This document shows positions 436 to 49,988 of a DNA stretch of 53,839 bases, piece after piece. The first letter of the stretch is position 1; each line of letters begins with the position of its first letter. The notes below the pieces were generated by a model that was not told the DNA's origin, ran no database searches, and saw nothing but the letters and a program-made list of their open reading frames with translations. Origin of the DNA: Dysgonomonas sp. HGC4 (GTDB taxonomy: Bacteria > Bacteroidota > Bacteroidia > Bacteroidales > Dysgonomonadaceae); the NCBI RefSeq assembly GCF_001261715.1, contig NZ_CVRU01000005.1, positions 1 through 53,839 of the forward strand. The letters are read 5' to 3'. The position numbers and the translations under genes are program-made.

Positions 436-448
436 TGGTCTGAGACCT
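436..448 (-). repeat. Outward palindromic repeat upstream of the aldo-keto reductase
   Basis: GGTCTGAGACC is a perfect 4+3+4 palindrome lying 15 bases before the ATG at 464. Read away from the gene it gives TTAAGGTCTCAGACC followed by AATTTATTC, which is the family layout (palindrome next to the gene, T-rich linker distal). Confidence 0.7.
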
Positions 449-463
449 TAACAATAATATTAT

Positions 464-1285
464 ATGAAAGAATTTATATTAAACAATGGAGTAAGGATAC
501 CCGCCATAGGGCTTGGTGTCTTTAGAGTAAATGATGCAAACGTAGCATATGAGACAGTGAAATCGGCATTATCTGTTGGATATAGACATATAGATACTGC
601 GATGATTTATGGCAATGAAGAAGAAGTAGGTAAAGCAATTAAAGACTCGGGAGTACCTCGCCAAGAAATATTCCTGACAACCAAACTTTGGAATGACGAT
701 CAGCGATCAGGCAAAGTAAAAGAAGCTCTTGATGCCAGCCTCGAAAAACTAGGCACAAACTATGTAGACTTATACCTCGTACATTGGCCTGTGAGGGGAA
801 CTTATGTAAGTGTTTGGAAAAAAATGGAGGAGATATACAGAGCAGGGAAAGTGAAAGCGATAGGTGTAAGTAATTATCACTCTCATCATCTGGATGATCT
901 ATTACAACAGGCTGAAATAGTCCCGGCAGTAAATCAGATTGAGTGCTATCCTTACCTTATCCAAGAATCTCTTATTAACTATTGCAAAGAAAAGGGCATA
1001 TACCCCGAAGCATGGGGACCATTAGGTGCAGGGCAATCGGATGTATTGAGTAACCCCGTGGTTCTTGAAATAGCCAAGAAGCATAATAAAAGTGCCGCAC
1101 AAATAGTACTTCGCTGGAATCTGGAACGTGGAGTAATTGTGATTCCAAAATCAGTGCATAAAGAAAGACAAATTGAAAATCTGAATATCAACGATTTTCA
1201 ACTGACAGATACTGAAGTTAAACAGATAAGCTCTTTACACAAAGGCTTGCGCTTAGGGTCAGATCCTGACAACTTTAATTTCTAA
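464..1285 (+). CDS. Aldo-keto reductase, 2,5-diketo-gluconate reductase type
   Basis: This is an NAD(P)H-dependent carbonyl reductase of the AKR superfamily, 273 residues, the usual length for a single TIM barrel. The catalytic tetrad is complete: Asp44, Tyr49, Lys74 (in TTKLW) and His107 (in LVHWP). The C-terminal cofactor-binding segment VIVIPKSVHKERQIENL is present. The substrate cannot be read from sequence; relatives reduce 2,5-diketo-gluconate, methylglyoxal or other small aldehydes. The protein has no signal peptide and should be cytosolic. The gene is a single unit bracketed by outward-facing palindromic repeats at 436-448 and 1285-1329, and its TAA stop is part of the second one. Confidence 0.93.
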   Translation: MKEFILNNGVRIPAIGLGVFRVNDANVAYETVKSALSVGYRHIDTAMIYGNEEEVGKAIKDSGVPRQEIFLTTKLWNDDQRSGKVKEALDASLEKLGTNYVDLYLVHWPVRGTYVSVWKKMEEIYRAGKVKAIGVSNYHSHHLDDLLQQAEIVPAVNQIECYPYLIQESLINYCKEKGIYPEAWGPLGAGQSDVLSNPVVLEIAKKHNKSAAQIVLRWNLERGVIVIPKSVHKERQIENLNINDFQLTDTEVKQISSLHKGLRLGSDPDNFNF

Positions 1286-1329
1286 GGTCGCAGATCCTTT
1301 TATTGCTTTGGTAAATATAATAACCAAAG
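1285..1329 (+). repeat. Outward compound repeat after the aldo-keto reductase
   Basis: Hairpin 1 is AGGTCGCAGATCCT (1285-1298); its first A is the last base of the TAA stop codon. The linker TTTTATTG follows. Hairpin 2 pairs CTTTGGT (1306-1312) with ACCAAAG (1323-1329). Hairpin 2 shares its CTTTGG sequence with the copies at 11063-11109 and 40673-40719. Confidence 0.75.
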
Positions 1330-1346
1330 AGCATAATATAAAAAAA

Positions 1347-1369
1347 AGGCTACCCAATATGGGCAGCCT
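1347..1369. terminator. Bidirectional terminator between the reductase gene and ahpF
   Basis: AGGCTACCC (1347-1355) pairs with GGGCAGCCT (1361-1369) around an AATAT loop. There is an A-run on the left and a T-rich run on the right. The one mismatch on the plus strand becomes a G-U pair on the minus strand, so it is strongest as the ahpF terminator. Confidence 0.8.
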
Positions 1370-1389
1370 TTTCTATTCTTATTATATAT

Positions 1390-2946
1390 TTAAGAGAGTA
1401 CACCTCTGATACGATCTTCGAAAGCCGAAAGGGAAGCCTTTGCACCTTCACCCATAGCTATAATAATTTGTTTGTAAGGAACGGTAGTTACGTCTCCCGC
1501 AGCATAAATACCCGGAACATCCGTACGACAATGGCTATCTACTTCTATTTCGCCGAAACGATTCGTACTTACCACGCCTTTGAATACCGAACTGTTAGCA
1601 GCCAATCCTATCTGAACAAAGATACCATCCAGATCAACAACACGCTCTTGTTCTGTCTTACGATCTTTTACACGGATGCCTGTAACCTTATCACCATTTC
1701 CAACTACTTCCGTAGTTTGAGAACTTAGAATAATCTCTACATTAGGCAAACTTCTTACTTTTTCTTGTAGCACTTTATCAGCCTTCAGCTCATCTAAAAA
1801 TTCGAAAACAGTTACTTTCGAGCAGATACCTGCTAAGTCAATAGCAGCTTCAATACCTGAGTTTCCACCGCCTACTACCGCTGCATGCTTTCCTTTGTAG
1901 AAAGGACCATCGCAGTGAGGACAAAAAGCAACACCTCTTCCGATATATTCAGATTCACCAGCAACATTAAGTTTACGCCAGCTTGCACCTGTTGCAATAA
2001 TCAAAGCAGGAGTTATCAACTTCTCTCCTACATTGGTATATACAACCTTATGACCTTCTTCTACCTCTACATTTTCGACTAAGCGATGCTCTAATACATC
2101 AATAGCATAGTCTTTTATATGTAGTTTCAAATTATTGGCAAGTTCTTCTCCTGTGGTTTTAGGAACAGAAACCATATTCTCAATACCCACAGTTTCTTTA
2201 ACTTGTCCGCCAATACGCTCAGCCAATAATGCTACACTTAAGCCTTTACGTGCCGAATATATTGCTGCGGCTGCACCGGCAGGACCTCCACCAACTACAA
2301 CTACATCGTAATTCTTAGAAGTACCGGTTTCGATCTTCTGATCGTCGCTACCATATTGATTTTCGAGTTTCGATAACAATTCTCCAAAATCGCCTCTTCC
2401 TACATGAAGCAACTTACCATCTGCAAATACAGCAGGAACTCCTTGTAATTTTAATGCATCAACTTCTTCCTGATTCAATGCACCATCAACCATTTCGTGA
2501 GAAATCTCAGGATTTAGGATAGCCATTGCATTCAGAGCCTGAACAATATCAGGGCAATTGGTACATGTTAAAGATACATAAGTAGTCAAATTAATAGGTC
2601 CTTTCAAAGCCTTCACTCTACCTACAATGAAATCATCTGGAATATTCTTTCCCTTACCATCGCTGTTCAGTATAGCCAATAGTAATGAGGTAAACTCATG
2701 TCCATTAGGAATGCCACGAAATTTAACACCTGTTTTTTCGCCATCTTTGAGGAGCGAAAATTCAAGTCCATTTCCTTCATTCACTTCACAAGATAATTTA
2801 TCTGAGCAAGAAGCTACATCCGATAACATTTCGAGTAATTCGTTGCGGCTTTCATGTTGATTAGACACTGCTATATCAAATGTATATTGAGCCTTAAGCT
2901 CTGCAAATACAGTACGTAATTGTTCTTTTAAAGAGGAATCTAACAT
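1390..2946 (-). CDS. ahpF: Alkyl hydroperoxide reductase subunit F
   Basis: AhpF is the NADH-dependent flavoprotein that re-reduces AhpC after peroxide turnover. At 518 residues it has the normal length. The N-terminal tandem thioredoxin-like domain carries the redox pair Cys128-Cys131 (CTNC). The FAD-binding GGGPAG motif is at about 219-224. The thioredoxin-reductase-like active site CPHC is at 342-345, followed by a second GGGNSG nucleotide-binding motif and the C-terminal GIYAAGD flavin motif. The gene lies downstream of ahpC on the same strand. The 106-base gap holds a hairpin (3020-3039) and a palindromic repeat (2970-2984). It is cytosolic. Confidence 0.97.
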   Translation of the reverse strand: MLDSSLKEQLRTVFAELKAQYTFDIAVSNQHESRNELLEMLSDVASCSDKLSCEVNEGNGLEFSLLKDGEKTGVKFRGIPNGHEFTSLLLAILNSDGKGKNIPDDFIVGRVKALKGPINLTTYVSLTCTNCPDIVQALNAMAILNPEISHEMVDGALNQEEVDALKLQGVPAVFADGKLLHVGRGDFGELLSKLENQYGSDDQKIETGTSKNYDVVVVGGGPAGAAAAIYSARKGLSVALLAERIGGQVKETVGIENMVSVPKTTGEELANNLKLHIKDYAIDVLEHRLVENVEVEEGHKVVYTNVGEKLITPALIIATGASWRKLNVAGESEYIGRGVAFCPHCDGPFYKGKHAAVVGGGNSGIEAAIDLAGICSKVTVFEFLDELKADKVLQEKVRSLPNVEIILSSQTTEVVGNGDKVTGIRVKDRKTEQERVVDLDGIFVQIGLAANSSVFKGVVSTNRFGEIEVDSHCRTDVPGIYAAGDVTTVPYKQIIIAMGEGAKASLSAFEDRIRGVLS

Positions 2947-2969
2947 ATTTAAATTTTTATTTTCAGTTT

Positions 2970-2984
2970 AATGGTCTTCGACCT
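2970..2984 (+). repeat. Outward palindromic repeat upstream of ahpF
   Basis: GGTCTTCGACC (2973-2983) is a perfect inverted repeat 26 bases upstream of the ahpF start. Read away from ahpF it gives TTTAATGGTCTTCGACCT followed by AATAGTTATTT, a slightly degenerate family member. Confidence 0.6.
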
Positions 2985-3019
2985 AATAGTTATTTAAGCG
3001 GATGATATCTGAAAAATTA

Positions 3020-3039
3020 AGACCGGCAATTGCCGGTCT
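3020..3039 (-). terminator. Hairpin between ahpC and ahpF, likely partial terminator
   Basis: A perfect 20-base palindrome (AGACCGGCAA/TTGCCGGTCT) starts 13 bases after the ahpC stop. On the minus strand it is followed by TTAATTTTTC. Because ahpF continues in the same direction, it may end or slow part of the transcription, or stabilise ahpC mRNA, so that AhpC exceeds AhpF. Confidence 0.65.
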
Positions 3040-3052
3040 CAGTATTCCTTAA

Positions 3053-3619
3053 TTAGATCTTACCAACCAAGTCAATACTAGGTTTTAAAGTCTCATCGCC
3101 TTTTTTCCATTTAGCTGGACAAACTTCACCATCGTGAGTAGCTACAAACTGAGCAGCCTCAATTTTACGTAGCAATTCGTCAGCATTACGTCCGATACCA
3201 TTGTCATGAATTTCAGCAATTTTGATTTGTCCTTCTGGATTCACCAAGAAAGTTCCTCTGTATGCCATTCCTTCTGATTCGATCATTACACCAAATGCAC
3301 GACTCAACAATCCTGTTGGATCGGCTAACATTGGGTATTTGATTTTACGGATAGTTTCAGAAGCATCATGCCATGCTTTGTGTACAAAATGAGAATCTGT
3401 ACTTACAGAATACACCTCAACACCCATTGCTTGCAGTTGATCGTATTTATCTGCGATGTCTACTAATTCAGTAGGACAAACAAATGTAAAATCGGCTGGG
3501 TAGAAAAAGAAAACAGCCCATTTTCCTTTTACGTCGTCGCTGCTAACTGTTTTGAAAGCTCCATTGTGATAAGCTTGTACTTTGAACTCTGGTGATTGAG
3601 AATTGATAATTGGTTCCAT
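3053..3619 (-). CDS. ahpC: Alkyl hydroperoxide reductase subunit C (2-Cys peroxiredoxin)
   Basis: AhpC reduces hydrogen peroxide and organic hydroperoxides. The 188 residues match the family length. The peroxidatic cysteine is Cys48 in FTFVCPT and the resolving cysteine is Cys167 in EVCPAKW, as in typical 2-Cys AhpC proteins. It is first in the ahpC-ahpF unit and has a well-formed Bacteroidota promoter at 3661-3691. In Bacteroides this pair is known to be under OxyR control; I cannot identify an OxyR site here. It is cytosolic. Confidence 0.97.
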   Translation of the reverse strand: MEPIINSQSPEFKVQAYHNGAFKTVSSDDVKGKWAVFFFYPADFTFVCPTELVDIADKYDQLQAMGVEVYSVSTDSHFVHKAWHDASETIRKIKYPMLADPTGLLSRAFGVMIESEGMAYRGTFLVNPEGQIKIAEIHDNGIGRNADELLRKIEAAQFVATHDGEVCPAKWKKGDETLKPSIDLVGKI

Positions 3620-3660
3620 ATTTTTTATTATTAAGTTGATAAATTTCGTTTATGATGATG

Positions 3661-3691
3661 CAAAGATATATAGTTTTTATTTATAAACAAA
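3661..3691 (-). promoter_or_regulatory. ahpC promoter
   Basis: On the minus strand, TTTG (3691-3688) is followed after 19 bases by TATCTTTG (3668-3661). This fits the Bacteroidota sigma-ABfr consensus TTTG-N19-21-TAnnTTTG exactly. The -7 box ends 42 bases before the ahpC ATG. Confidence 0.75.
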
Positions 3692-4129
3692 CTATCCTTT
3701 ATAGAAAATACCTATATCGACTATATCCTCTAAAATTCGAAATCTGATACTTAACAATGCTAAATATTAACAAAAACAATAAGTTACAAAACATTCATTA
3801 AGGTTGCAAAGCAAACATCAATAGAGAGACTTCTGTCAACTACAAAATCCACTAAAGAATCTAACAATCAATACAAAACAATCTTAAAAATCATCAATCT
3901 AAAAAAAAGACATTTTTTTTAACTAATATTTCATTTTTTACTTTTTGAGAGTCATTAGAAAACACTTTTTCTCTATCGTATCATTATTGACAAATAAATA
4001 TCATCTATTAGCTAAGCCAAACTAAATATATTATGAGAATAAAAAATTATATCTGTCATATCTTATAAACAAAGAAAGCTCATTCTCAAAATGGATTTTC
4101 ATTCAATCAATTTAGATATTTAAAACAAT
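3692..4129. other. Long A/T-rich intergenic region
   Basis: These bases lie upstream of the ahpC promoter. I see no ORF of credible length, no tRNA and no strong hairpin. It is rich in A-tracts and T-tracts and may include upstream regulatory DNA for ahpC. Confidence 0.5.
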
Positions 4130-4162
4130 AAAGGCTCGAGAATGGAATTTTCTCGAACCTTT
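4130..4162 (-). terminator. Terminator after the TPR lipoprotein gene
   Basis: AAAGGCTCGAGAA (4130-4142) pairs with TTCTCGAACCTTT (4150-4162). The single mismatch is a G-U pair on the minus strand. It lies 35 bases past the stop codon of the TPR gene. Confidence 0.75.
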
Positions 4163-4196
4163 ATTATATATCTAATACTTTCACTCTATGCAGGGA

Positions 4197-5519: not shown

Positions 5520-5553
5520 AGGTGAATTTCTTAAAACCTTTGAAAAAATAAAA

Positions 5554-5586
5554 AACAGTTTCAATAAATAATCTTTTGAAACTGTT
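5554..5586 (-). terminator. Terminator after the small lipoprotein gene
   Basis: AACAGTTTCA (5554-5563) pairs perfectly with TGAAACTGTT (5577-5586). On the minus strand a T-rich run (TTTTTATTTTTTC) follows. It starts 14 bases past the stop at 5600 and lies upstream of the chosen start of the TPR gene, supporting that shorter start. Confidence 0.75.
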
Positions 5587-5599
5587 GTATGCTTTCTTG

Positions 5600-5953
5600 T
5601 CATTTTATAATAAAACTATCATGTTCAATAATTTCCCCATCCTTACCAACAATATCAATATAATAGATATCAGAAGGCAAACTAGAAATATCTATAGACG
5701 TATTTTCGTCCAAAGAAGTATCTACTTCTTTATAAAAAACTACTTCTTCATTTGTATTGGTTATGTTCACACTTACTTGACCTAAATCTCCATTCAAATC
5801 AAGTAATTGAAGTCCAGATCTACTAGATGTAGATTCTACGGAGTTATCCATACCGCCACCTCCAGTAGTACCTATACCCATTTCGTCCTTTTCACAGGAA
5901 GTAAATAATAAAGCAATACAGCTAATGATAATCAATAAGCTTGTAATTTTCAT
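5600..5953 (-). CDS. Small lipoprotein, DUF3244-like
   Basis: The start at 5953 (MKITSL) gives 117 residues with a signal peptide and lipobox LFTSC; an ATG seven codons upstream is possible but leaves a poorer signal sequence. The mature part begins with an acidic and glycine-rich linker (GTTGGGGMDNS). It then has an all-beta pattern with LGQVSVNITNTNEEVVFYKE and a closing YYIDIVGKDGEIIEHDSF. This resembles DUF3244 and other small Ig-like surface lipoproteins of Bacteroidales. Function unknown. It is followed by a terminator and then the TPR lipoprotein gene on the same strand. Confidence 0.72.
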   Translation of the reverse strand: MKITSLLIIISCIALLFTSCEKDEMGIGTTGGGGMDNSVESTSSRSGLQLLDLNGDLGQVSVNITNTNEEVVFYKEVDTSLDENTSIDISSLPSDIYYIDIVGKDGEIIEHDSFIIK

Positions 5954-6646: not shown

Positions 6647-7834
6647 TTAGCTATCCCATTGTTGAAGTTCGGACAAAGCTAGCTGATAATCTCGCTCCCT
6701 CTCCAAATATTCATCTATTGTATCATAATAGATCGACAATTCTAACAAATAATCAATCAAAGATAATTGACCTTTATCAAAAGCTTTCTTCAACAAGCTC
6801 TTATTATTAGATACATTTAATACTTCTTCATAATCGCGAAGCAAACCCGACAAAGTACTGGCTCTACTATATTGATTCTTTAGATTATTATAAAATTGAA
6901 GCTCCGAGTCTTTGTGTTGTACCTGCAAAGCTAAAGTTTGGGCTTTTTGGTGTTTTACCGTATTTTTACCCTCCCATAACGGAATAGATATTCCAAGAGT
7001 GACCCCTTGATGGGTAGCACCTAAAAGACGCTCACTCATATATCCTGCCGATATTTTAGGTAGATTTAAAGCTTTGGTTAGTTTCTCCTGCTTACGGCTC
7101 ACATCAACTTCTTTTTCGGCTAATTCAAGAGCCGGATTATTCACCTTAGCCATAGTAAACCACTGATCGAAACTTAGCGGCAGCACATAATTAGAATAAG
7201 TATCCAAGACATCCATCAGAGGCTCGCCTCCATTCATCCGCTGCAATTCAGCCCGAAGAGTCGCAATTTCCACCTCACAGATTTGCAAAGCTTTCTCTTC
7301 ATTCAGCAAATTCAACTTAGTCTTGTTGTATTCGATAATATTAATATCGCCCTTATCGAAACGTATTTGATAGGCTTCTCTCAATTCTCTTGCGAACTTT
7401 ACCCGTTCTATCAATTCTTCATAAACCTTTGTTTGATATACAAGCTCTACACAAAAAGCTCTGGCTTCTTGCAAAATCTCTTTAGCTTGTTGCCTATACG
7501 CTAAATCGGCTTGCGTATTCTGTCCCGCAACCACCTGCGATCTGTAACGATAAGCTGTGGGAAAGTCAAAAGATTGGGTTATACTCAAATCTTTTCGATT
7601 ACCTTCACCCGTAGGACTACCCCACAAATAACCTACACCCACTTCGGGATTCTCCAGATTAAGAGCAGTTTTATTACTTATCTTATCCGCTTTAGTCTGT
7701 TCTTGCAGTGCTTTTAGAGTTGTATTATTAGACTCTATATTTCTCAACACCTGCTGAAAGCTATCCTGAGCATTTACTCCCCAAGAGAGCATCAATGCAT
7801 AGATAAGTAGAATATATTTATTGTTGTATTTCAT
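6647..7834 (-). CDS. TolC-family outer-membrane efflux protein (CusC-like)
   Basis: This is the outer-membrane channel of a tripartite metal efflux pump. The start at 7834 gives 395 residues with a clear signal peptide ending at VNAQDS; an ATG three codons upstream is also possible. Long amphipathic helices rich in Glu, Gln, Lys and Ala cover most of the length, as in the TolC alpha-barrel. PTGEGNRKDLSITQSFDFP is a typical first beta-strand region. It lies between cusA and the Fur gene on the same strand. It is somewhat shorter than proteobacterial CusC. Confidence 0.88.
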   Translation of the reverse strand: MKYNNKYILLIYALMLSWGVNAQDSFQQVLRNIESNNTTLKALQEQTKADKISNKTALNLENPEVGVGYLWGSPTGEGNRKDLSITQSFDFPTAYRYRSQVVAGQNTQADLAYRQQAKEILQEARAFCVELVYQTKVYEELIERVKFARELREAYQIRFDKGDINIIEYNKTKLNLLNEEKALQICEVEIATLRAELQRMNGGEPLMDVLDTYSNYVLPLSFDQWFTMAKVNNPALELAEKEVDVSRKQEKLTKALNLPKISAGYMSERLLGATHQGVTLGISIPLWEGKNTVKHQKAQTLALQVQHKDSELQFYNNLKNQYSRASTLSGLLRDYEEVLNVSNNKSLLKKAFDKGQLSLIDYLLELSIYYDTIDEYLERERDYQLALSELQQWDS

Positions 7835-7904
7835 AATTACCATTACTTTTTGTTATTACACTCATCAATGAAATAAAAAGGAATATGACCTTAATTAGCT
7901 TCAT
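7818..7904 (-). CDS. Tiny hydrophobic ORF between cusA and cusC
   Basis: A 28-codon frame starts at an ATG four bases after the cusA stop and ends inside the first codons of cusC in another frame. It begins MKLIKVIFLFISLMSV, a signal-peptide-like or membrane-spanning segment, and ends NGNYEIQQ. It could be a small membrane protein, a coupling leader for cusC, or chance. Support is limited to position and hydrophobic pattern. Confidence 0.3.
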   Translation of the reverse strand: MKLIKVIFLFISLMSVITKSNGNYEIQQ

Positions 7905-15331: not shown

Positions 15332-15344
15332 AGGTCTTAGACCT
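15332..15344 (+). repeat. Palindromic repeat upstream of dgt, orientation exception
   Basis: AGGTCTTAGACCT is a perfect palindrome followed by TTTTAGTGTTTAGG, closest to the copy at 39182-39194. Unlike the others it does not abut a gene: it is 115 bases before dgt with the linker pointing toward dgt. Confidence 0.6.
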
Positions 15345-15459
15345 TTTTAGTGTTTAGGTTTAGGGGACAGCTTATCTATTTGCAGCAATTGAATGCATAG
15401 AGCAAGCCCTACCCCGTACAAATTAGAATATATCATTAAACGTTTTCATCTACTTAAAT

Positions 15460-16788
15460 ATGGAATGGCAAAAACTATTATCGTCTAAACGTTTTGGAAT
15501 GGAAGAATTTCATGACGAAAGACAACATGATCGCTCCGATTTCCAAAGAGATTACGACCGCCTCATCTTTTCATCGCCTTTCAGAAGGCTTCAAAATAAA
15601 ACTCAAGTATTTCCACTTCCAGGCAGTGTATTTGTACATAATAGATTAACGCACAGCTTAGAAGTATCTTCTGTGGGACGATCTATCAGTTTGATGGTGT
15701 CTAAGACGCTACGCACAAAATATCCGGATTCTCCAGCAGCTTTTGAAGAAATAGGATCAATTGTTGCTGCTGCCTGTTTGGCTCACGATTTGGGTAATCC
15801 TCCTTTCGGACATTCGGGAGAAAAAGCCATTGCCACTTATTTTTCAGAAGGTAAAGGACAACCACTTTATCACGATATAGTAAAAGGTGATGGACGATGG
15901 GAAGACTTTATTAATTTCGATGGAAATGCAAACTCAATTCGCCTACTAACCCACCAGTTTATAGGACGTAGAAAAGGAGGTTTTGCTATGACTTATTCCA
16001 TGTTGGCTTCTATCATAAAATATCCCTTTTCATCAGAATTGGCACATGGTAAAGGTAAATTTGGATTCTTCCAAGCAGAGGAGGCTGACGTAACAAAAAT
16101 AGCAGATGAACTAGGAATACCTAAATTGCAGGAACAGCCCCTTAGATTGGCTCGTTACCCTCTTGTTTATCTTGTAGAGGCTGCCGATGATATATGTTAC
16201 AAGATTATGGACATTGAGGATGCTCATAAACTACATATTCTGACAACTGAAAGAACAATAGAACTTTTTATGAATTTCTTTCCTCCCGAAAGGCAAGAAA
16301 AAATGAGAAGAACGATGCTGCTTGTAAACGATGTAAATGAACAATTGGCTTATTTACGATCTAATGTTATAGGCTTGCTTGTAAATGAATGTGCTCAGGT
16401 ATTCATAGACCACGAAGAAGAAATTCTTTGTGGAACTTTCAATGGAGCTTTAATCAAACATATTCCTAATCTTTCGAGAGAAGCATACAAAACGTGTACT
16501 GAATACAGTGTCAAATACATTTATAGAGCTAAAGATGTTCTGGACATAGAACTTGCAGGACATCGCATTATCGGATTACTATTAGATACATTGATGGATG
16601 CAATACGCGATCCGGACAAAGCATATTCTCAACTTTTATTAAGAAGGGTTCCCGAGCAGTATGAGGTACAATACCCGTCATTATACACGCGTGTATTGGC
16701 TATCTTGGATTATATTTCGGGAATGACCGATATTTATGCTTTAGATTTATACCGAAAGATAACAGGTATGAGTTTACCTGCCGTTTAA
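15460..16788 (+). CDS. dgt: Deoxyguanosinetriphosphate triphosphohydrolase-like protein
   Basis: This HD-superfamily enzyme hydrolyses dNTPs (classically dGTP) to the nucleoside and tripolyphosphate. The 442 residues carry the HD metal site: His65 (NRLTHSLEVS), His109-Asp110 (CLAHDLGNPPFGHSGE) and the later LVEAADDICYKIMDIEDA motif. The N-terminus YDRLIFSSPFRRLQNKTQV is the usual dGTPase opening. It is cytosolic. The gene is transcribed alone, and its stop codon merges with a degenerate palindromic repeat. It converges with the YiiX-like gene, leaving only 12 bases between them. Confidence 0.94.
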   Translation: MEWQKLLSSKRFGMEEFHDERQHDRSDFQRDYDRLIFSSPFRRLQNKTQVFPLPGSVFVHNRLTHSLEVSSVGRSISLMVSKTLRTKYPDSPAAFEEIGSIVAAACLAHDLGNPPFGHSGEKAIATYFSEGKGQPLYHDIVKGDGRWEDFINFDGNANSIRLLTHQFIGRRKGGFAMTYSMLASIIKYPFSSELAHGKGKFGFFQAEEADVTKIADELGIPKLQEQPLRLARYPLVYLVEAADDICYKIMDIEDAHKLHILTTERTIELFMNFFPPERQEKMRRTMLLVNDVNEQLAYLRSNVIGLLVNECAQVFIDHEEEILCGTFNGALIKHIPNLSREAYKTCTEYSVKYIYRAKDVLDIELAGHRIIGLLLDTLMDAIRDPDKAYSQLLLRRVPEQYEVQYPSLYTRVLAILDYISGMTDIYALDLYRKITGMSLPAV

Positions 16789-16800
16789 GGTCTCCCAGTT
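16788..16800 (+). repeat. Degenerate outward repeat at the dgt stop codon
   Basis: The dgt TAA runs into TAAGGTCTCCCAG followed by TTTTATTTTC. The first arm and the linker fit the family and the second arm is lost. The linker overlaps the 3' end of the convergent gene. Confidence 0.35.
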
Positions 16801-17388
16801 TTATTTTCTGATGATCGGTTTCATTTCTTTTATAAGATAAGTATCATCAATTGCGTAGTATTGCTTATTACGAATAGTTCCCGTCGGTTTTATCAAATTC
16901 CGATGGATGGCGTTATTGATCGAAATAGCGATCAATTCCGTACAATATACTTTCTCATCAGAACTATTGTCAAAATCGAGATCGAAAGGTGTCTCCTTAT
17001 TCAAATATTGAGTAGCAACGCAAACGATAGAATCTCGAACTATTTGTGTTGTATCTAATCTATAAACTCCCCAAGTAGATATATCTTTCAGAAAAGTGTC
17101 TAGTTCCTCTTTTCTGACACCTCCTATTCCTGTAAACTCGCTCGCCTCAGAATGTATTACATACACTTGGCTACTGTCTATAACAATAATACCGCCATGG
17201 GAATACAATTGTTCTCTATTTGATGATTTTCTAAAATAATCAGAGAAGAATCCATTCCCATGACGATATATAATATCTCCATTTTGAAACTCTTGTGTAT
17301 TTAATCCATTATCATTGATCTTTTCATTCTTATGACAGCCCAATAATAACAAAAACAAGCTTAACAAAAAGATTTTAAGAGTATCCAA
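16801..17388 (-). CDS. YiiX/YebB-like papain-fold lipoprotein
   Basis: The 195 residues start with a signal peptide and lipobox LLGC. The mature domain has the permuted NlpC/P60 (YiiX, DUF830) pattern: NGDIIYRHGNG, the His motif SHGGIIVI, VYVIHSEASE, and the Cys motif VYCTELIA. Members are putative cysteine amidases or esterases, mostly of unknown substrate. It should be a lipid-anchored envelope protein. The DUF4878-like gene lies upstream on the same strand, 71 bases away. Confidence 0.8.
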   Translation of the reverse strand: MDTLKIFLLSLFLLLLGCHKNEKINDNGLNTQEFQNGDIIYRHGNGFFSDYFRKSSNREQLYSHGGIIVIDSSQVYVIHSEASEFTGIGGVRKEELDTFLKDISTWGVYRLDTTQIVRDSIVCVATQYLNKETPFDLDFDNSSDEKVYCTELIAISINNAIHRNLIKPTGTIRNKQYYAIDDTYLIKEMKPIIRK

Positions 17389-17420
17389 CTATTTACCGTA
17401 TAATATATAAAACAGTAACG

Positions 17421-17460
17421 GGTAATAATATTTACCGAGGTAATAAAAAGGTCTGTGCCT
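17421..17460 (-). repeat. Outward compound repeat at the stop of the DUF4878-like gene
   Basis: On the minus strand the gene's TAA opens TAAGGCACAGACCT, followed by TTTTATTACC and a second hairpin GGTAA/TTACC (17436-17421). It lies between two lipoprotein genes on the same strand. Confidence 0.65.
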
Positions 17461-17804
17461 TATTTACCCATTGTAACTTTCCATTCACCATCTCGTTTCA
17501 CTAAGTTAAGTTCCTCTTGATTACCCTGAGGCGATAAATAAGTAACCCAAGCTATTGAATCTCCAACAATTGAATCTTTAATCATCTCAAACTTAAAGTC
17601 CGGATATTTAGGTAGTGCATCACCCGACATTTGAGTTGCCATATCAATAAGAGAAGCAGTTCCTGCAGTCACGTATTTTTTAGCATCTTCCAGATCGCCT
17701 TTAGCCATACTTTCGGTGAATTTTTCGGCAGCTACTTTTGGTGAATTACTATTACAAGAAACAAAAGCAACCGAAACGAATAATAGTAATACTATTTTTT
17801 TCAT
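17460..17804 (-). CDS. Small lipoprotein, DUF4878-like
   Basis: The 114 residues have a signal peptide and lipobox FVSC. The body (AAEKFTESMAKGDLEDAKKYV, then a beta segment ending LVKRDGEWKVTMGK) matches the NTF2-like fold of DUF4878 lipoproteins, small envelope proteins of unknown function common in Bacteroidota. It is bracketed by a compound repeat at each end, and its TAA stop belongs to the downstream one. Confidence 0.82.
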   Translation of the reverse strand: MKKIVLLLFVSVAFVSCNSNSPKVAAEKFTESMAKGDLEDAKKYVTAGTASLIDMATQMSGDALPKYPDFKFEMIKDSIVGDSIAWVTYLSPQGNQEELNLVKRDGEWKVTMGK

Positions 17805-24937: not shown

Positions 24938-25116
24938 TATAAATTTCCTTTAGATTATATTTTCGATGTAAAGTTAGGGAAATTATTACTTTCGGTTTCC
25001 CAAAAAATCCTAATTTAAGGTTTAAAACCTTTTTTACTTTTAAGTTAAGTGTGACTATAATTGTAAGTTCAGATTTTAAAATGTGTCATTAAAATTGAAC
25101 TTCTATTTGTATCCTT

Positions 25117-25911: not shown

Positions 25912-26003
25912 TGCTAAGTAACGTTAAATATTTATTGTCATATTTTGATAATTACAACAATTTTAGGTATTGCTCTAGCCAATATAATAAATAAGATTGA
26001 AAC

Positions 26004-26837
26004 CTAATCTTTCAATTGTTCAACTATCTTAATAGCCTCACAAGCTTCCTTTACGTCATGTACCCGTAAGATATTAGCCCCATTCATTAAAGCATATGTA
26101 TTCAGTACAGATGTACCATTAAGAGCCTGAGAAGATGAGACTTCAAGGAACTTGGTTATCATCGTTTTCCTAGATATGCCTACAAGCAAAGGTAATTCAA
26201 AATTTTCAAAGAAATTCAAATGACGCATCAATTCGTAATTTTGAGGGACGTCTTTTGAGAATCCAAAACCGGGATCGAGTATAATATCATTCACCCCTAA
26301 CCGATGCAAATGGGCTACTTTTTCTGAGAAATAATAAGCAATATCAGGAACTAAATCGTTGTATTTATTCAATTGTTGCATTGTTTGAGGAGTTCCCCGC
26401 ATATGCATCAAAATATAGGGTACTTGAAGGTCAGCAACAGTTTGAAACATTTGAGAATCGAGCTCACCGCCTGAAATATCATTAACAATTGCCACATTAT
26501 AATCTTTCACACAGATTCTGGCAACATCTGCATAAAAAGTATCTACAGACAAAACAACTTCGGGAAACTCTTTATTGATCGCAGACAAAGCTGGTGATAG
26601 ACGGTCTATCTCTTCTTCTGAAGTGAGAAATTGAGATGAAGGGCGCGTAGATTGCGCACCTATATCAACCATTGTACCCCCTTGAAGAAGTATCTCCTCT
26701 ACCCTCTTTAATATGTCAGCCACATTTTGTTTGCGACTTCTTTCATAAAAAGAATCAGGAGTAATATTAAGTATCCCCATCACAACAGGAGTGGATAGAT
26801 CCAGTAATTCGCCCTTAATATTTATCGTTTTTCCCAT
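26004..26837 (-). CDS. folP: Dihydropteroate synthase
   Basis: FolP condenses p-aminobenzoate with dihydropterin pyrophosphate in folate synthesis and is the sulfonamide target. The 277 residues hold the conserved segments VMGILNITPDSFYERS, VDIGAQSTRPSS, IVNDISGG, and DPGFGFSKD. The C-terminal HDVKEACEAIKIVEQL is also typical. The start at 26837 lies seven bases from a palindromic repeat (26844-26856). It is cytosolic and upstream of cdaA, probably in the same transcript. Confidence 0.96.
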   Translation of the reverse strand: MGKTINIKGELLDLSTPVVMGILNITPDSFYERSRKQNVADILKRVEEILLQGGTMVDIGAQSTRPSSQFLTSEEEIDRLSPALSAINKEFPEVVLSVDTFYADVARICVKDYNVAIVNDISGGELDSQMFQTVADLQVPYILMHMRGTPQTMQQLNKYNDLVPDIAYYFSEKVAHLHRLGVNDIILDPGFGFSKDVPQNYELMRHLNFFENFELPLLVGISRKTMITKFLEVSSSQALNGTSVLNTYALMNGANILRVHDVKEACEAIKIVEQLKD

Positions 26838-26843
26838 ATCTTA

Positions 26844-26910
26844 AGATCTCTGACCTATTTTCTTATTTGGTATGCAACAGCGATAGACTGTTATAATCAG
26901 AAAGCATATC
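26844..26910 (+). repeat. Outward compound repeat upstream of folP
   Basis: Hairpin 1 is AGATCTCTGACCT (26844-26856, one arm mismatch), then ATTTTCTTATTTGG. Hairpin 2 is nested: GGTATGC (26869-26875) with GCATATC (26904-26910), and inside it AACAG (26876-26880) with CTGTT (26888-26892). Confidence 0.6.
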
Positions 26911-26946
26911 ATTAAATACTTTCATTTACTTAATTAACACAGACTT

Positions 26947-29341: not shown

Positions 29342-29355
29342 TAAAATTTACACTA

Positions 29356-29438
29356 AGGTTTTAGACCTATTTATTATTTTGGCAAGTATAAATACAACTT
29401 ATAGCGATTACCGAGATAACATTGTATATATACTTGCC
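29356..29438 (+). repeat. Outward compound repeat upstream of gmk
   Basis: Hairpin 1 is AGGTTTTAGACCT (29356-29368, one arm mismatch), linker ATTTATTATTTT. Hairpin 2 is a perfect 10-base pairing of GGCAAGTATA (29381-29390) with TATACTTGCC (29429-29438). Confidence 0.72.
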
Positions 29439-29473
29439 CTTACTTTTACAATTTCGCAACTACATCTAAAAAT

Positions 29474-30346
29474 TTAGAGCACGTTAAGCACCTGCTCTTT
29501 AATCTGCTCTAATTCATCCTTCATCTGAACAACTATTTGCTGCATCTGAACATGATTTGCTTTAGAACCTGTTGTGTTTATTTCACGCCCCATCTCCTGA
29601 GTAATAAATCCTAGTTTTTTACCTTGTCCCGAAGTATCGTTCAATGTTTCAAGGAAATATTTAAGGTGATTTCTTAAGCGTACTTTTTCCTCATTAATAT
29701 CAAGTTTTTCAATATAATAAATCATTTCTTGCTCGAAACGATTTTTATCATAGTCAAAATTCTCAATTTTTTGAAGGGCTTCGATGATTCGGTTTTTTAC
29801 CTTTTCAACTCTCTCCGCTTCAAAAGGTTCTATATCTGTCATAAGAGTACTGATATTAGTAACCTTCTGAATGAATAAATCTTCCAACATTTTACCTTCT
29901 TGTTTTCTAAATTCTACAAGTTGATCTAATGCTTTATTTATAGTTTCAGATACCACTTTCCATTCTTCTTCGTCAGCTTCCTGAGCTTCATATTTCAGCA
30001 CATCAGGCAGTCTCAATAATACTTGAAACCAATCTGCAGGGACAGCTACTCCTAGCTTTTCAGAAGAATTTTTTATCTGGTTATAATATGCTTCAAGTAC
30101 ATTTTGATTAATTTGCGATGTAGTTTCTTTACTTGTGTTTTCAATATAAATAGCAAAATCAACTTTACCTCGCTCAAGGCGACGTGCTATCAGGCTACGC
30201 ACATTCAACTCTTGCTCTTTATAAACACTTGGAATACGCACAGACAAGTCTAGTTGTTTACTATTCAAAGATTTAACCTCAACAGTAATTTTCTTATTTG
30301 ATAATTCGGCTGTTGCTTTGCCAAATCCTGTCATCGATTGTATCAT
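29474..30346 (-). CDS. yicC: YicC family endoribonuclease-like protein
   Basis: YicC proteins are recently recognised endoribonucleases linked to small-RNA turnover. The start at 30346 (MIQSMTGFGKA) matches the family's invariant opening; a longer frame upstream has no family residues. The 290 residues include VEVKSLNSKQLDLSVRIP, and the C-terminal catalytic-region motif GKKLGFITQEMGREINTTGSK. It is cytosolic. It heads the yicC-gmk-nadD group. Confidence 0.94.
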   Translation of the reverse strand: MIQSMTGFGKATAELSNKKITVEVKSLNSKQLDLSVRIPSVYKEQELNVRSLIARRLERGKVDFAIYIENTSKETTSQINQNVLEAYYNQIKNSSEKLGVAVPADWFQVLLRLPDVLKYEAQEADEEEWKVVSETINKALDQLVEFRKQEGKMLEDLFIQKVTNISTLMTDIEPFEAERVEKVKNRIIEALQKIENFDYDKNRFEQEMIYYIEKLDINEEKVRLRNHLKYFLETLNDTSGQGKKLGFITQEMGREINTTGSKANHVQMQQIVVQMKDELEQIKEQVLNVL

Positions 30347-30423
30347 ATAATTTGTTTTATTTTTTACAAAAGTAACTTTTTTAGACGAAACTATGGTCAA
30401 AATTCACTCTTCAAATATATTCC

Positions 30424-31747: not shown

Positions 31748-31784
31748 CCTTATAAATTAAATATATTAATATCTAATAATAAGG
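31748..31784 (-). promoter_or_regulatory. Expression platform that can hide the CLC-F ribosome binding site
   Basis: On the minus strand CCTTAT (31784-31779), which includes the last two bases of the riboswitch pseudoknot strand, can pair with ATAAGG (31753-31748), directly before the ATG at 31746. Ligand binding would hold the CC in the aptamer and free the ribosome site. The mechanism is inferred from pairing. Confidence 0.5.
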
Positions 31785-31833
31785 CGTCATCAGCTTGTTC
31801 AAGGCGGTTGGTTAAGGAAGACACCATTTCCCG
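31781..31833 (-). ncRNA. Fluoride riboswitch (crcB motif)
   Basis: The minus strand reads GGGAAATGGTGTCTTCC, then TTAACC, then a short hairpin CTTGAACAAG and GCTGATGACGCCTTAT. P1 pairs GGGA or GGAA with TTCC. The pseudoknot pairs GGTGTC with GACGCC. The GCTGATG block and the unpaired TTAACC are the conserved landmarks of the crcB aptamer. It lies 35 bases upstream of a CLC-F-like gene, the expected partner. Confidence 0.82.
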
Positions 31834-31849
31834 AGTATTTATCACACCA

Positions 31850-34100: not shown

Positions 34101-34154
34101 TAAGGGACGAATAAAAAACATGAATAAGATAAGTTTAAAATTAGTTTATACAAT

Positions 34155-34188
34155 AAAAAGACTCGGGGTAATTACTCCGAGTCTTTTT
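34155..34188. terminator. Bidirectional terminator
   Basis: AAAAAGACTCGGGG (34155-34168) pairs with CTCCGAGTCTTTTT (34175-34188) with one G-U pair. The A-run and T-run make it work for both convergent genes, the AldA-like gene on the plus strand and the carboxynorspermidine dehydrogenase gene on the minus strand. Confidence 0.9.
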
Positions 34189-34210
34189 ATTTTTTGATAT
34201 AATTGAGATA

Positions 34211-37320: not shown

Positions 37321-37330
37321 TAACCTAAAG

Positions 37331-37408
37331 AGGTAGCAGACCTTGTTTATTGCTGTGACTGGGTGTAATAGCCAAAGGCAGTTTTAATTATAAAATACAG
37401 CAATAAAC
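37331..37408 (+). repeat. Outward compound repeat between atpD and atpC
   Basis: Hairpin 1 is AGGTAGCAGACCT (37331-37343), ten bases after the atpD stop. Hairpin 2 is long: GTTTATTGCTGT (37345-37356) pairs perfectly with ACAGCAATAAAC (37397-37408). Here the linker TTTATTG is itself part of hairpin 2. The loop can form a smaller inner pairing (ACTG/CAGT). Confidence 0.7.
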
Positions 37409-37429
37409 ATTTAATGTTATTTATAAGCA

Positions 37430-46090: not shown

Positions 46091-46113
46091 AACATCAAGC
46101 TATACTTCAAAAG

Positions 46114-46149
46114 AAAAAGCCGAGACTCCTTTAGGAATCTCGGCTTTTT
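46114..46149. terminator. Bidirectional terminator between GH78 and gapA
   Basis: AAAAAGCCGAGA (46114-46125) pairs perfectly with TCTCGGCTTTTT (46138-46149) with an inner TCCT/AGGA pairing. It serves both convergent genes. Confidence 0.9.
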
Positions 46150-46174
46150 AATATCTATAAGATACTTAATTTAA

Positions 46175-47490
<1,316 letters not shown>

Positions 47491-48477
47491 TTATTCTTTA
47501 ATTTTAAGCAGAACCCGATCGGCTATATCTCTAGCCTCCAACACATAGGAAAAGACCAAATCTTTTATTTGAGGTTGTCTATTTATCTTATCATCTTCAG
47601 AAATATAAAACGGTTGATCTTTACTATCTCCCCAAATATGACTCACTAATTCAGGACAATCTACAAAGGGGTTTCTATTGCCTTGTATTTTATATACCGC
47701 ATTGTTTCTGGCTATTTCCTTGTCGCTTATAGGGTCTTCATTATTCCACTTGATTAACATTTCGAGAGCCCACGGTTGAAGTCCAGGATAAGCTTCTATC
47801 TGCAACATCGACTTCTTAGCATCATCCTTCCAATCATATGAGTAATCTTCATAACAAGTTAACATATAAAAGTAAACACGGGCAAAGTCTCCTTTATATT
47901 CATCTGCTGGTTCAAACACCTGTCCTCTATATCCATGAGGATAAGTATTGTTTCCAACCTTAGACACTCCGTTATCAAACTTAGCAATTCCAACCTCCCC
48001 TAGTGGCAAATTACTCTTAGCTGCATTAGCGCTATAATCGGAAGGGAATATATTATGAAGATCGCCATTAGCATCATACGAAGAATACTTATCTCTCTTT
48101 CCCCACCAACTACGAGGCATGCAATGTTCGCGATTCTGGACATTCCCACCAACATAGGTTGTATGCTTTTCATTAGAATACATATCTAGAAAATAACCTT
48201 CCGAACTCCAGTCTGTCTTCTTAAAATAATTGTCCCACCAATAGCGAGCTGTTGTATTTTCATCAAAATTCAGATACTCATGATCTCTTATAATATCATG
48301 CATAGCAGTCTTTAAAGCTGCGCCGTATAAACCATTTGCCCGATTGTAATATCCAATTGATATATCTTTGATAAATAAAGAAGCAATTGCTATTAATAGA
48401 GGAATCACCCACAACAGCTTTTTACCAAAGCTTGAGCCTTTACTTCTTCCTTTTTTCTTTTTTCTTTTCTTTGCCAC
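47491..48477 (-). CDS. Endonuclease I family nuclease with membrane anchor
   Basis: This is a non-specific DNA/RNA nuclease of the EndA (Endonuclease_1) family. The 328 residues carry the beta-beta-alpha-metal site: NREHCMPRSWWG (115-126, His118) and DLHNIFPSDYSAN (139-151, metal-binding Asn). The N-terminus is unusual, a strongly basic stretch (AKKRKKKKGRSKG) before one hydrophobic helix (LLWVIPLLIAIASLFI), suggesting a membrane-anchored rather than freely secreted enzyme. The start is GTG: the preceding in-frame codon is a TAA stop, so no earlier start exists. It follows glyA on the same strand. Confidence 0.9.
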   Translation of the reverse strand: MAKKRKKKKGRSKGSSFGKKLLWVIPLLIAIASLFIKDISIGYYNRANGLYGAALKTAMHDIIRDHEYLNFDENTTARYWWDNYFKKTDWSSEGYFLDMYSNEKHTTYVGGNVQNREHCMPRSWWGKRDKYSSYDANGDLHNIFPSDYSANAAKSNLPLGEVGIAKFDNGVSKVGNNTYPHGYRGQVFEPADEYKGDFARVYFYMLTCYEDYSYDWKDDAKKSMLQIEAYPGLQPWALEMLIKWNNEDPISDKEIARNNAVYKIQGNRNPFVDCPELVSHIWGDSKDQPFYISEDDKINRQPQIKDLVFSYVLEARDIADRVLLKIKE

Positions 48478-48488
48478 TTATTACTGCA

Positions 48489-48502
48489 AGGTCAAAAGAC
48501 CC
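48489..48502 (+). repeat. Outward palindromic repeat upstream of the endonuclease gene
   Basis: GGTCAAAAGACC (48490-48501) is a perfect palindrome 12 bases before the GTG start, followed by CTCTTTATTATTTT. It is read outward from the gene, as elsewhere. Confidence 0.68.
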
Positions 48503-48533
48503 TCTTTATTATTTTAACTATCTCTAAATAAAA

Positions 48534-48569
48534 AAACACAGATGAAGCCTTTAAACCTCAACTGCGTTT
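48534..48569 (-). terminator. glyA terminator
   Basis: AAACACAG (48534-48541) pairs with CTGCGTTT (48562-48569), extended inward by GAGG/CTTC-type pairs. On the minus strand a TTTTTTT run follows. It starts 30 bases after the glyA stop. Confidence 0.75.
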
Positions 48570-48599
48570 TTTTGTATGTATAATGAATCTCTGATCAAA

Positions 48600-49880
48600 T
48601 TACCAAGCAAACAATGGGTAATCTTTCATCATTTGATTTACTTTATCATGTACAGCCTTAATTATTTTTTCGTCTTCGTGATTAGCCAATACTGTATCAA
48701 TCATTTCTACAATATCACCCATCAAACCATCCTTAACTCCACGAGTTGTAATAGCTGGAGTACCAAAACGTAAACCCGATGTAAGAAATGGGCTACGGCT
48801 ATCAAAAGGTACCATGTTTTTATTGGTAGTAATATCTGCTGCCACAAGAGCTTTTTCAGCAACCTTACCAGTCAATTCAGGGAATTTCTTTCTAAGGTCA
48901 ATCAAAATCAAGTGATTATCTGTACCTTCCGATACAATTTTATATCCTTTATCAGCAAAAGCCTGAGCCATTACAGCAGCATTCTTTTGAACTTGTGCCT
49001 GATATACTTTATATGATGGGTCTAATGCCTCAGCAAAAGATACCGCTTTAGCTGCAATAACGTGCTCTAGTGGTCCACCTTGTATTCCTGGGAATACAGC
49101 AGAATCTAACAAAGCCGACATCATACGAGTTTCGCCTTTAGGAGTTTTCTTACCCCAAGGATTTTCGAAATCTTTACCTATCAATATAGCTCCTCCACGA
49201 GGTCCGCGTAGAGTTTTATGAGTTGTAGTAGTTACAATATGTGCATATTGAAGAGGGTTGTTTAAAAGACCCGCAGCAATTAGTCCCGCAGGGTGAGCCA
49301 TATCAACCAAGAAAATAGCATTGATAGAATCTGCAATCTGACGGATACGAGCATAATTCCAATCACGAGAGTATGCCGAAGCACCTGCAATAATCAATTT
49401 TGGTTTCTCAGCCTTAGCTACAGCTTCCATCTGATCATAATCAACCTCTTCGTTATCTTGTCTTACATTATATTCTAGTGCATGGAACATCAACCCCGAA
49501 AAGTTAACGGGCGAACCGTGCGAAAGGTGACCTCCATGAGAAAGATTCAATCCTAAAAATTTATCGCCTGCTTGAAGACATGCCAAAAATACTGCAGCAT
49601 TTGCCTGAGCACCCGAGTGAGGTTGTACATTCGCCCATTCTGCTCCAAAAATTTGTTTCAAACGATCTATAGCCAATTGCTCGCTAAGGTCAACTATTTC
49701 GCAGCCTCCATAATAACGTTTGCCCGGATATCCTTCGGCATACTTATTAGTTAAGCACGATCCCATAGCATCCATTACTTGTTGGCTCACAAAATTCTCT
49801 GAAGCGATAAGTTCAATTCCTTTTAGTTGGCGCTGGTGTTCTCTTTCAATAATATCAAAAATTGCAGTATCTCTTTTCAT
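48600..49880 (-). CDS. glyA: Serine hydroxymethyltransferase
   Basis: GlyA interconverts serine and glycine while charging tetrahydrofolate with a one-carbon unit. The 426 residues match the family. The PLP lysine is Lys222 in [15 protein letters not shown]. The segments [27 protein letters not shown] and [15 protein letters not shown] are intact. It is cytosolic. Two tandem palindromic repeats lie upstream, and a TAAATTTG -7 candidate (50003-50010, minus) lies beyond them. Confidence 0.98.
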
Positions 49881-49898
49881 TATATAAGAAAGTTTTAA

Positions 49899-49911
49899 AG
49901 GTCGCTGACCT
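49899..49911 (+). repeat. Outward palindromic repeat upstream of glyA, copy 1
   Basis: AGGTCGCTGACCT is a perfect palindrome apart from its centre, 18 bases before the glyA start, followed by GTTTATTATTTTTC. It is the gene-proximal member of a tandem pair. Confidence 0.75.
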
Positions 49912-49932
49912 GTTTATTATTTTTCTGATTAA

Positions 49933-49988
49933 AGGTCGTTGACCTCTTTATTACTCGTATTGTTAAGAATAGAGTTATTCGACAATAC
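49933..49988 (+). repeat. Outward compound repeat upstream of glyA, copy 2
   Basis: AGGTCGTTGACCT (49933-49945) repeats copy 1 after 34 bases, followed by CTTTATTACTCG. Hairpin 2 pairs GTATTGT (49957-49963) with ACAATAC (49982-49988). Only this distal copy has the second hairpin. Confidence 0.75.

Follow-up and report, generated by a model that had tools for sequence, protein, structure and literature searches.

Among described repeats, those closest to the element studied here are the repetitive extragenic palindromic sequences (REPs), the REPINs, which consist of two inverted REPs, the palindrome-associated transposable elements (PATEs) with their IS200/IS605 ends, and the miniature inverted-repeat transposable elements (MITEs). 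In the excerpted text of PMC3733652, GTAG and CGTC REPs are described as hairpins that measure 20-40 bp and carry GTAG or CGTC at the foot, present in many intergenic copies, whose termini supply stop codons of flanking open reading frames (ORFs), TAG in the case of the GTAG type; CGTC REPs also occur there without a dedicated transposase. PATEs and IS200/IS605 elements have hairpin ends, a short specific insertion sequence and no target duplication, and a small copy made of the ends only is described among them (excerpt of PMC7290912). Small non-autonomous MITEs are reported for Porphyromonas gingivalis within the Bacteroidales (excerpt of PMC4596501). Here we analysed a 53,839-nt stretch of Dysgonomonas sp. 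HGC4 (hereafter the window), which is the entire contig C5 (NZ_CVRU01000005.1) of a 4.49-Mb genome in 196 contigs (G000), and the short repeats tipped by an AGGTC hairpin that it carries (hereafter the AGGTC element). Its AtpB is most similar to those of D. capnocytophagoides and other members of the genus, in line with its place in Dysgonomonas.

The repeats of the window form one family with defined ends; they occupy sites that are filled in one lineage and empty in another, are restricted to intergenic DNA, stand in random orientation to the genes and show a moderate strand bias in one complete chromosome. They are probably short non-autonomous mobile elements, inserted by a trans-acting enzyme and moved as single-stranded DNA at replication forks. 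An initial annotation of the window knew of no described family with this arrangement, and we likewise found no published description in open-licence titles and abstract openings, among the matches listed, and no paper in the open-licence literature containing the string AGGTCTTCGACCT or dealing with repetitive palindromes of Dysgonomonas.

Ends and abundance of the element

The element begins with the hairpin AGGTCTCAGACCT, continues with TTTATTGCTTTGG and an A+T-rich middle, and ends in TTACTTA; its consensus AGGTCTCAGACCTTTTTATTGCTTTGGTAAGTATAATAAC...GTTATAA...ATTAAATATTTACATTTACTTA is preceded by TTA, with the insertion point between the two. It measures ~80-95 nt, and more where another repeat is nested inside. 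The hairpin (AGGTC nnn GACCT) is perfect or near-perfect and lies flush with the insertion point, and terminal inverted repeats are lacking, as the AGGTC... and ...TTACTTA ends are not inverted copies of each other. Among the 102 full-length copies, to which the flanking-base statistics are confined, T stands at position −2 in 84% and A at position −1 in 87%, i.e., insertion took place behind TA, often TTA and often a TAA stop codon. This TA directly abuts AGGTC, and the foot of the hairpin carries neither GTAG nor CGTC.

The sequence TAAGGTCNNAGACCTWTTTATT, with up to three mismatches, matched 10 times in the window against 0.01 expected, and the palindrome AGGTCN{1,6}GACCT was found 239 times in G000 against 8 for the reversed control. 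A profile trained partly on window copies gave 19 matches of at least 8 bits, the threshold for a copy in the window, and 0.0 per window in 20 shuffles, which served as the control rather than E-values. The initial annotation had named shuffled DNA as the yardstick for its repeats, and measured by it they are real. In a sample of 422,673 nt of G000 (the window and 20 further stretches), an iterated profile collected 76 copies, or ~180/Mb. The stretches were chosen from contigs heading the hairpin-match list, where exact hairpins reach 76/Mb versus 50/Mb genome-wide; scaling the count by exact-hairpin density gave an estimate of ~530 copies per genome. At gathering score Rfam returned no match for the element, its only hits being a fluoride riboswitch in the window and a tRNA in five copy-bearing loci, and a plasmid collection searched with one copy returned none.

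Copies in the window

The copies and fragments are as follows (coordinates of the window, strand, profile score):

429..451, minus: 5′-end copy (hairpin and linker), model positions 2-24, upstream of a 2,5-didehydrogluconate reductase-like gene (gene below the curated cut-off); 11.7 bits
1282..1336, plus: copy that starts with the TAA stop codon of gene 464-1285 and has CTTTGGT/ACCAAAG as its second hairpin; 36.0 bits
7810..7894, minus: copy absent from the earlier list, orthologous gaps closed in G002 (−7 nt) and G001 (−10 nt); 36.2 bits
11021..11107, minus: copy; 29.2 bits
15179..15203, plus: decayed 5′ end behind a stop codon; 8.5 bits
15331..15458, plus: copy with a middle loosely like a GTAG-type REP pair and its 3′ end at 15458, from 5′/3′ end pairing and a two-error motif search; 14.8 bits at the 5′ end
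16785..16812, plus: remnant (TTTAAGGTCTCCCAGTTTT) where G002 has a full copy, from ortholog comparison; no profile match
17386..17461, minus: copy; 25.7 bits
17811..17833, plus: decayed fragment, weak copy (11.2 bits) in the orthologous gap of G002; 4.8 bits
23820..23846, plus: decayed copy upstream of uvrA, where G002 and G001 have better 5′ ends in the orthologous gap (16.1 and 22.2 bits); 4.6 bits
25015..25093, plus: copy absent from the earlier list, present in G002 too; 23.9 bits
25916..26005, minus: copy absent from the earlier list, present in G002 too; 32.5 bits
26841..26931, plus: full copy common to G002, not in G001, G005 or G004; 43.3 bits
28140..28165, plus: 5′-end copy; 14.8 bits
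29353..29445, plus: full copy whose second stem, GGCAAGTATA/TATACTTGCC, is long, fold z −5.9; 44.0 bits
37331..37421, plus: full copy between atpD and atpC, a junction of 8 nt in D. capnocytophagoides; 48.9 bits
39179..39271, plus: full copy separating the ATP synthase subunit a gene from the gene that follows (atpE, judged by position), beginning at a TAA stop codon; 25.9 bits
40659..40722, minus: copy in opposite orientation directly upstream of atpA; 42.4 bits
43238..43286, plus: decayed copy behind atpG; 8.5 bits
48488..48517, plus: decayed copy, weak 5′ end (10.2 bits) in the orthologous gap of G001; 4.6 bits
49898..49923, plus: first of two tandem 5′-end copies upstream of a serine hydroxymethyltransferase gene; 11.3 bits
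49932..49956, plus: second tandem 5′-end copy at the same site; 10.4 bits
51570..51645, minus: weak copy absent from the earlier list, orthologous gap of 1 nt in G002; 11.7 bits

The initial annotation had listed about twenty sites. Fifteen of its 21 coordinates (436, 1285, 11095, 15179, 15332, 17449, 26844, 28143, 29356, 37331, 39182, 40707, 43240, 49899 and 49933) reach 8 bits; 17811, 23823 and 48489 score only 4.6-4.8 bits, yet a better copy stands in the orthologous gap of a sister species, and 16788 marks the remnant without a profile match. The sites at 2970 and 13073 are not supported as copies, and four copies had been missed (7810-7894, 25015-25093, 25916-26005 and 51570-51645).

Filled and empty sites among relatives

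The initial annotation had suggested REP-like mobile elements, and the high copy number, intergenic location, palindromic tip and orthologous sites filled or empty among relatives agree with this. The comparison of orthologous gaps that it had proposed was made for the window with four Dysgonomonas relatives, G002, G001 (a complete single chromosome), G005 (taken as D. capnocytophagoides) and G004, and the presence of copies was found to differ between sister species. Copies of at least 8 bits were present in the window only at gaps 6, 11, 23, 29, 32, 37 and 43 and in G002 only at gaps 10, 25, 28, 36 and 40; gaps 7, 12, 14 and 17, with differing or decayed copies, were left out of this count, and in G002 some of the window-only gaps contain other sequence, so that not all are clean gains. 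A further copy stands in G002 and G001 at the 5′ end of window ORF 29474-30400, whose TTG start is doubtful. At the atpA-atpG junction, L038 carries a copy (104 nt) versus 7 nt in the window; the other 16 relatives have 1-15 nt in 14 cases and −1 and 23 nt in two, and the junctions of G002 and G001 also carry copies.

A search for filled and empty sites yielded 51 element-genome pairs from 27 of the 102 full-length copies, and 26 pairs (17 copies) could be joined at ≥20/26 flank bases. Copy 8 has a seamless empty site, with 26/26 flank bases matching at the consensus boundaries (or one base to either side); its target ends in CA, so the terminal TA/TTA belongs to the element and not to a duplication. 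Copies 40 (against G001, 22/26) and 52 (23/26) fit the consensus boundaries exactly or within one base, and copies 6, 14 and 41 (24/26) within two bases. The joined sites showed no long target duplication, and the TA on both sides of most copies is compatible with a duplication of at most the 2-bp TA.

Different repeats occupy the same atp gaps in further genomes of the Dysgonomonas group (L040, L041, L042, L043, L044, L045, L051 and L054), namely AATTAGCAAAT...ATTTGCTAATT, GTAACttGTAAC arrays and CCCCTCCC...GGGAGGG.

Orientation relative to replication

The G001 chromosome was sampled in 56 stretches of 20 kb (1.12 Mb), 40 of them roughly evenly spaced and 16 chosen for synteny or earlier. 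Their cumulative GC skew is lowest over a flat stretch at 1.4-1.62 Mb, reaches its peak at 3.55 Mb and shows a shoulder as far as 3.85 Mb. With the origin placed at 1.65 Mb and the terminus at 3.75 Mb, the AGGTC...TTACTTA strand lies on the lagging side in 78 of 116 copies (p = 0.00026), counted from 125 matches of which nine with a model start >10 were left out; over a grid of origins and termini the count ranged from 70 to 78. The bias is alike where genes run with the fork (31/45) or against it (30/40), and in G000, where only the GC skew of contigs could be used, 51 of 80 copies, summed over contigs, agree with the same trend. Orientation thus seems to be set by DNA replication, regardless of the direction of the neighbouring genes, which suggests movement as single-stranded DNA at replication forks.

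The excerpted text of PMC6006769 documents the use of the lagging-strand template by IS608-type elements and a replication-strand bias for two IS200/IS605 members; in one genome survey, as excerpted in PMC7290912, elements showed no strand preference (10/22 on the leading strand). If the lagging-strand template is used here, the transposed strand would be the complementary one and would carry the hairpin at the 3′ end.

Distribution in the Bacteroidales

The exact pattern AGGTCNNNGACCT occurs 223 times in G000, 233 in G001, 466 in G002, 69 in G004 and 426 in G005, and was not found in G003 (62% complete). The covariance model whose use the initial annotation had recommended was built from G000 and G001 copies and applied to at most 150 candidates per genome, so that its counts are lower bounds. 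It found at least 150 copies in each of G000, G001, G002 and G005, 75 in G004, 66 in G195 (best E 2.9e-6), 27 in G019 and 11 in G023; among those candidates it found none in G003, G009, G052 and G119, a weak result for the last two.

More than 100 exact hairpins are present in five of 393 genomes of the order, G000, G001, G052 (1314), G119 (391) and G195 (237), the last three belonging to three other Bacteroidales families. Ten G052 copies, found with a pattern demanding both ends, run AGGTCTTCGACCTATTTAATGTTGCTTACGCATT...TTTTGTAAGACTACTTA over 97-105 nt, and [CGT]TACTTA follows 60-110 nt past the hairpin in 11 of 24 cases sampled in G052, against 115 of 5200 random anchors; the G052 elements therefore agree with those of Dysgonomonas at both ends and differ in the middle. 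As in G052, sequence resembling TTTTGATGTTGCTTACGCA comes after the hairpins of G119, and the same 3′ motif was found at 1 of 15 hairpins in G119 and 0 of 3 in G195, not above random anchors. A burst of the 5′ hairpin is therefore present in three other families, and the common 3′ end in one of them.

Search for the enzyme that moves the element

The initial annotation had proposed a REP-associated tyrosine transposase (RAYT) as the mover. With the PF01797 profile at E<=0.001, no Y1 transposase was found in G000 or in the copy-rich G005. At the looser E<=1 these two gave one sub-threshold match each, that of G000 being rejected as a gene remnant on reading its three frames, and G119 (77% complete) gave none. 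One Y1 gene of ~180 aa is present in each of G001, G002 and G004, those of G001 and G002 being of different types (~29% identity); PF01797 matched four times in G052 and once above the cut-off, with an internal stop, in G195. The Y1 genes inspected in G001, G002, G004, G009, G010, G019 and G052 (not every match was inspected) have no AGGTC hairpin at their borders, and several border on other palindromes. GGATTTGCAATCC-type palindromes stand on either side of the single Y1 gene of G002 (L127:4860-5520), which makes this a second REP-like system of the genus; other repeats adjoin two of the three G052 genes and both G009 genes looked at, and no AGGTC hairpin adjoins the third G052 gene or one G010 gene.

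A RAYT (Y1 HUH transposase) that moved the elements as REPs or REPINs and was later lost from the genome of the window is accordingly an unlikely explanation. It would fit an element that is short, palindromic, high-copy, intergenic and strand-biased, in a group where single Y1 genes persist in G001, G002 and G004 and further matches in G052 and G195, and the excerpted text of PMC6006769 reports, for one TnpA subclass of Bacteroidetes, secondary structures of an atypical kind on the flanks. However, a RAYT was rejected as the visible mover on the absence of Y1 genes at E<=0.001 from G000 and the copy-rich G005 and on the other repeats or lack of AGGTC hairpins at the Y1 borders inspected, and the hairpin foot carries no GTAG guide.

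Further features of the Y1 loci were noted. The Y1 (RAYT-like) genes of G001, G004 and G019 (L126:4424-4963, L128:4270-4821 and L131:4774-5328) adjoin genes whose products start like MRRLPVYLxLDTSGSM (vWA-type by eye), and the G001 reading frame contains a GTAGGGGC...GCCCCTAC pair. Two G052 Y1 genes (L173, L174) lie among repeats such as CATAGGGCGTTGCCCCATGCTA and GCCCTTTCAGGGC, unlike the AGGTC elements of that genome.

Pairing of 5′ and 3′ ends gave 12 pairs of 60-300 nt, with 11 of 113 3′ ends lacking a 5′ partner, and seven long pairs, two of which stem from one place covered twice. In the long pairs no transposase could be recognised from the first 60 residues of the longest ORF, no family search having been run.

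Retro-elements, in which a reverse transcriptase priming at the replication fork would copy structured RNA into DNA, are highly improbable: the lack of inverted termini and of a long duplication, the strand bias, the structured copies and matches to a reverse transcriptase in each of the five Dysgonomonas genomes examined are in line with them, but the profile matches follow no pattern with hairpin abundance, being absent from the hairpin-rich G195, present in genomes with 2 or 3 hairpins (G014, G026, G032) and so different in score and length as to suggest unrelated types, and the enzyme was rejected as the mover.

Position relative to genes and structure

Genes of the G000 sample were called by our own simple procedure (coding fraction 0.858). 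None of 76 copies in G000 and one of 116 in G001 lies inside a gene, and the copies occupy 69 of 283 gaps of ≥20 nt in the G000 sample, whose contigs were chosen by their hairpin matches; for the G001 sample the figure is 107 of 691. In the 74 G000 copies flanked by genes, the median distance to the gene is 13.5 nt from the hairpin end and 22 nt from the tail end, and in 12 copies of this sample the stop codon is the very TAA that precedes the hairpin. The nearly constant outward orientation described by the initial annotation stands as the geometry of gap filling, as the element fills a short gap and its hairpin end must touch a gene. It does not stand as a preference: in co-directional gaps of G000 the hairpin lies at the stop in 30 cases and at the start in 29, and 44 of 85 G001 copies (44:41) are on the strand of their co-directional genes. 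Convergent gaps hold 0.59 (G000, 2 copies) and 0.47 (G001, 6 copies) copies per kb versus 1.53 and 0.88 in co-directional gaps; they are the sparsest class in G000 and on a par with the divergent ones in G001.

The annotation had also inferred selection on structure from a second hairpin that keeps its pairing. In an alignment of 63 of the 72 reference copies (nine left out by choice), the first hairpin covaries, with 11 both-side cells versus 3.0 in shuffles, reached in 0 of 500; eight of the 11 fall at one pair, mainly in copies with AGTTC/GAAC. Pair counts beyond it do not exceed the shuffles for the family: helices 36-41/86-91 and 45-49/58-62 covary no more than shuffles, helix 20-27/79-86 is marginal (reached by 30 of 500), and RNAalifold returned no consensus structure from the 63 copies. 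Folding is strong in some single copies (29353-29446, z −5.9; 37328-37423, z −4.5) and not in others (26841-26932, z −0.9). Moreover, a GTAGGG...CCCTAC pair of GTAG-type REPs (<=2 errors) lies within the AGGTC ends at nine places of the pooled sequences (5′ matches of at least 12 bits). Twice, a pair of these places represents one gap found in both G001 and G002, and at 15332 in the window the match is a loose one. The variable second hairpin thus consists in part of nested foreign repeats. The middle is replaced by a GTAG...CTAC REP pair in the G002 C1 stretch 120001-300000 (joined positions 77107, 79681, 132824 and 134828) and in G001:C1 near 215069 and 242482, and such chimeras show similar junctions at different loci, as if the chimera itself moves.

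The same annotation had offered boundary elements, such as antisense terminators or mRNA end protectors, as an alternative. We consider it very doubtful that the repeats are terminators, antisense terminators or mRNA 3′ protectors retained at gene ends by selection. The hairpin with its T-run resembles a short intrinsic terminator (−5.5 kcal/mol), its covariation would suit such a role, and many matches cover the 5′ end only, though some of these are copies with a nested repeat. Intrinsic terminators and boundary elements would be expected in a fixed orientation to genes, which the element does not have; its random orientation and the three copies between atp genes in both orientations led us to reject the explanation as the cause of the layout, and the lower density in convergent gaps (on those 2 and 6 copies only) and the polymorphism between sister species also speak against it. 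Single copies may still affect RNA.

Two other features of the window were noted. A fluoride riboswitch lies at 31774-31840 on the minus strand between two divergent genes (40.9 bits, gathering score reached), and an inverted repeat of 33+33 nt (82% complementary, with T runs) at 34139-34204, between convergent genes, is probably a two-way terminator.

Discussion

We propose that a trans-acting enzyme recognises the ends of the element, probably the folded hairpin, and inserts it behind a TA dinucleotide, leaving at most a 2-bp TA duplication. Movement would proceed through single-stranded DNA exposed at the replication fork, hence the AGGTC...TTACTTA strand would mostly end up as the lagging (nascent) strand, and insertions would survive almost only between genes.

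Several observations weigh against this proposal. Within-genome identity is low (median 0.60, maximum 0.79 among 46 G000 copies), so most copies are old, and a non-exhaustive ~2 Mb of sampled genus sequence yielded neither an autonomous copy nor a cognate gene. Twenty-five of the 51 filled/empty pairs were too diverged to join, and deletions or extra bases blur the boundaries at several junctions. The strand bias is at most 67:33, with origin and terminus read from the GC skew of sampled stretches; moving the terminus to 3.56 Mb lowers it to 74/116 (p = 0.004), and placing the origin at 1.55 Mb as well lowers it to 71/116 (p = 0.02). Under the three choices, the 40 evenly spaced stretches alone gave 58, 54 and 51 of 83. 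Copies in convergent or divergent gaps, 25 in all, showed no bias (13/25), and the polarity is opposite to the simplest IS608-like reading.

A broader interpretation is tentative: the AGGTC element might belong to a class of hairpin-tipped elements that has burst in at least four Bacteroidales families and is moved as single-stranded DNA at forks by an undescribed, non-Y1 enzyme. If the mover is not a Y1 transposase, a new enzyme of single-strand DNA mobility still awaits discovery, and lineages that have hairpin bursts, set against those that lack them, offer a direct route to search for it. The element also comes between genes of core operons such as atp, provides stop codons and keeps a record of replication polarity in its orientation.

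Compared with known systems, the AGGTC element resembles the P. gingivalis MITEs in being small and non-autonomous within the Bacteroidales, but MITEs have terminal inverted repeats, and the element has neither these nor a long target duplication. With REPs it shares the high intergenic copy number of short hairpins and termini that supply stop codons, and with the CGTC type the lack of a dedicated transposase in the sequence searched; it differs in its ~90 nt, in lacking their foot, in a hairpin flush with the insertion point and in a defined far end, TTACTTA. Like REPINs with their RAYT, it is non-autonomous, dispersed and presumably moved in trans, but it consists of one hairpin and an asymmetric tail, and two copy-rich genomes have no Y1 gene at E<=0.001. 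From PATEs and IS200/IS605 elements it is set apart by a terminal hairpin without a guide foot, the opposite polarity and the lack of a full insertion sequence with the same ends in the genus sequence sampled. It resembles them in a hairpin end and a short specific target, TA, and two of their members in a replication-strand bias; it has no long duplication, although most copies may have a 2-bp one of TA, and its second hairpin does not covary.

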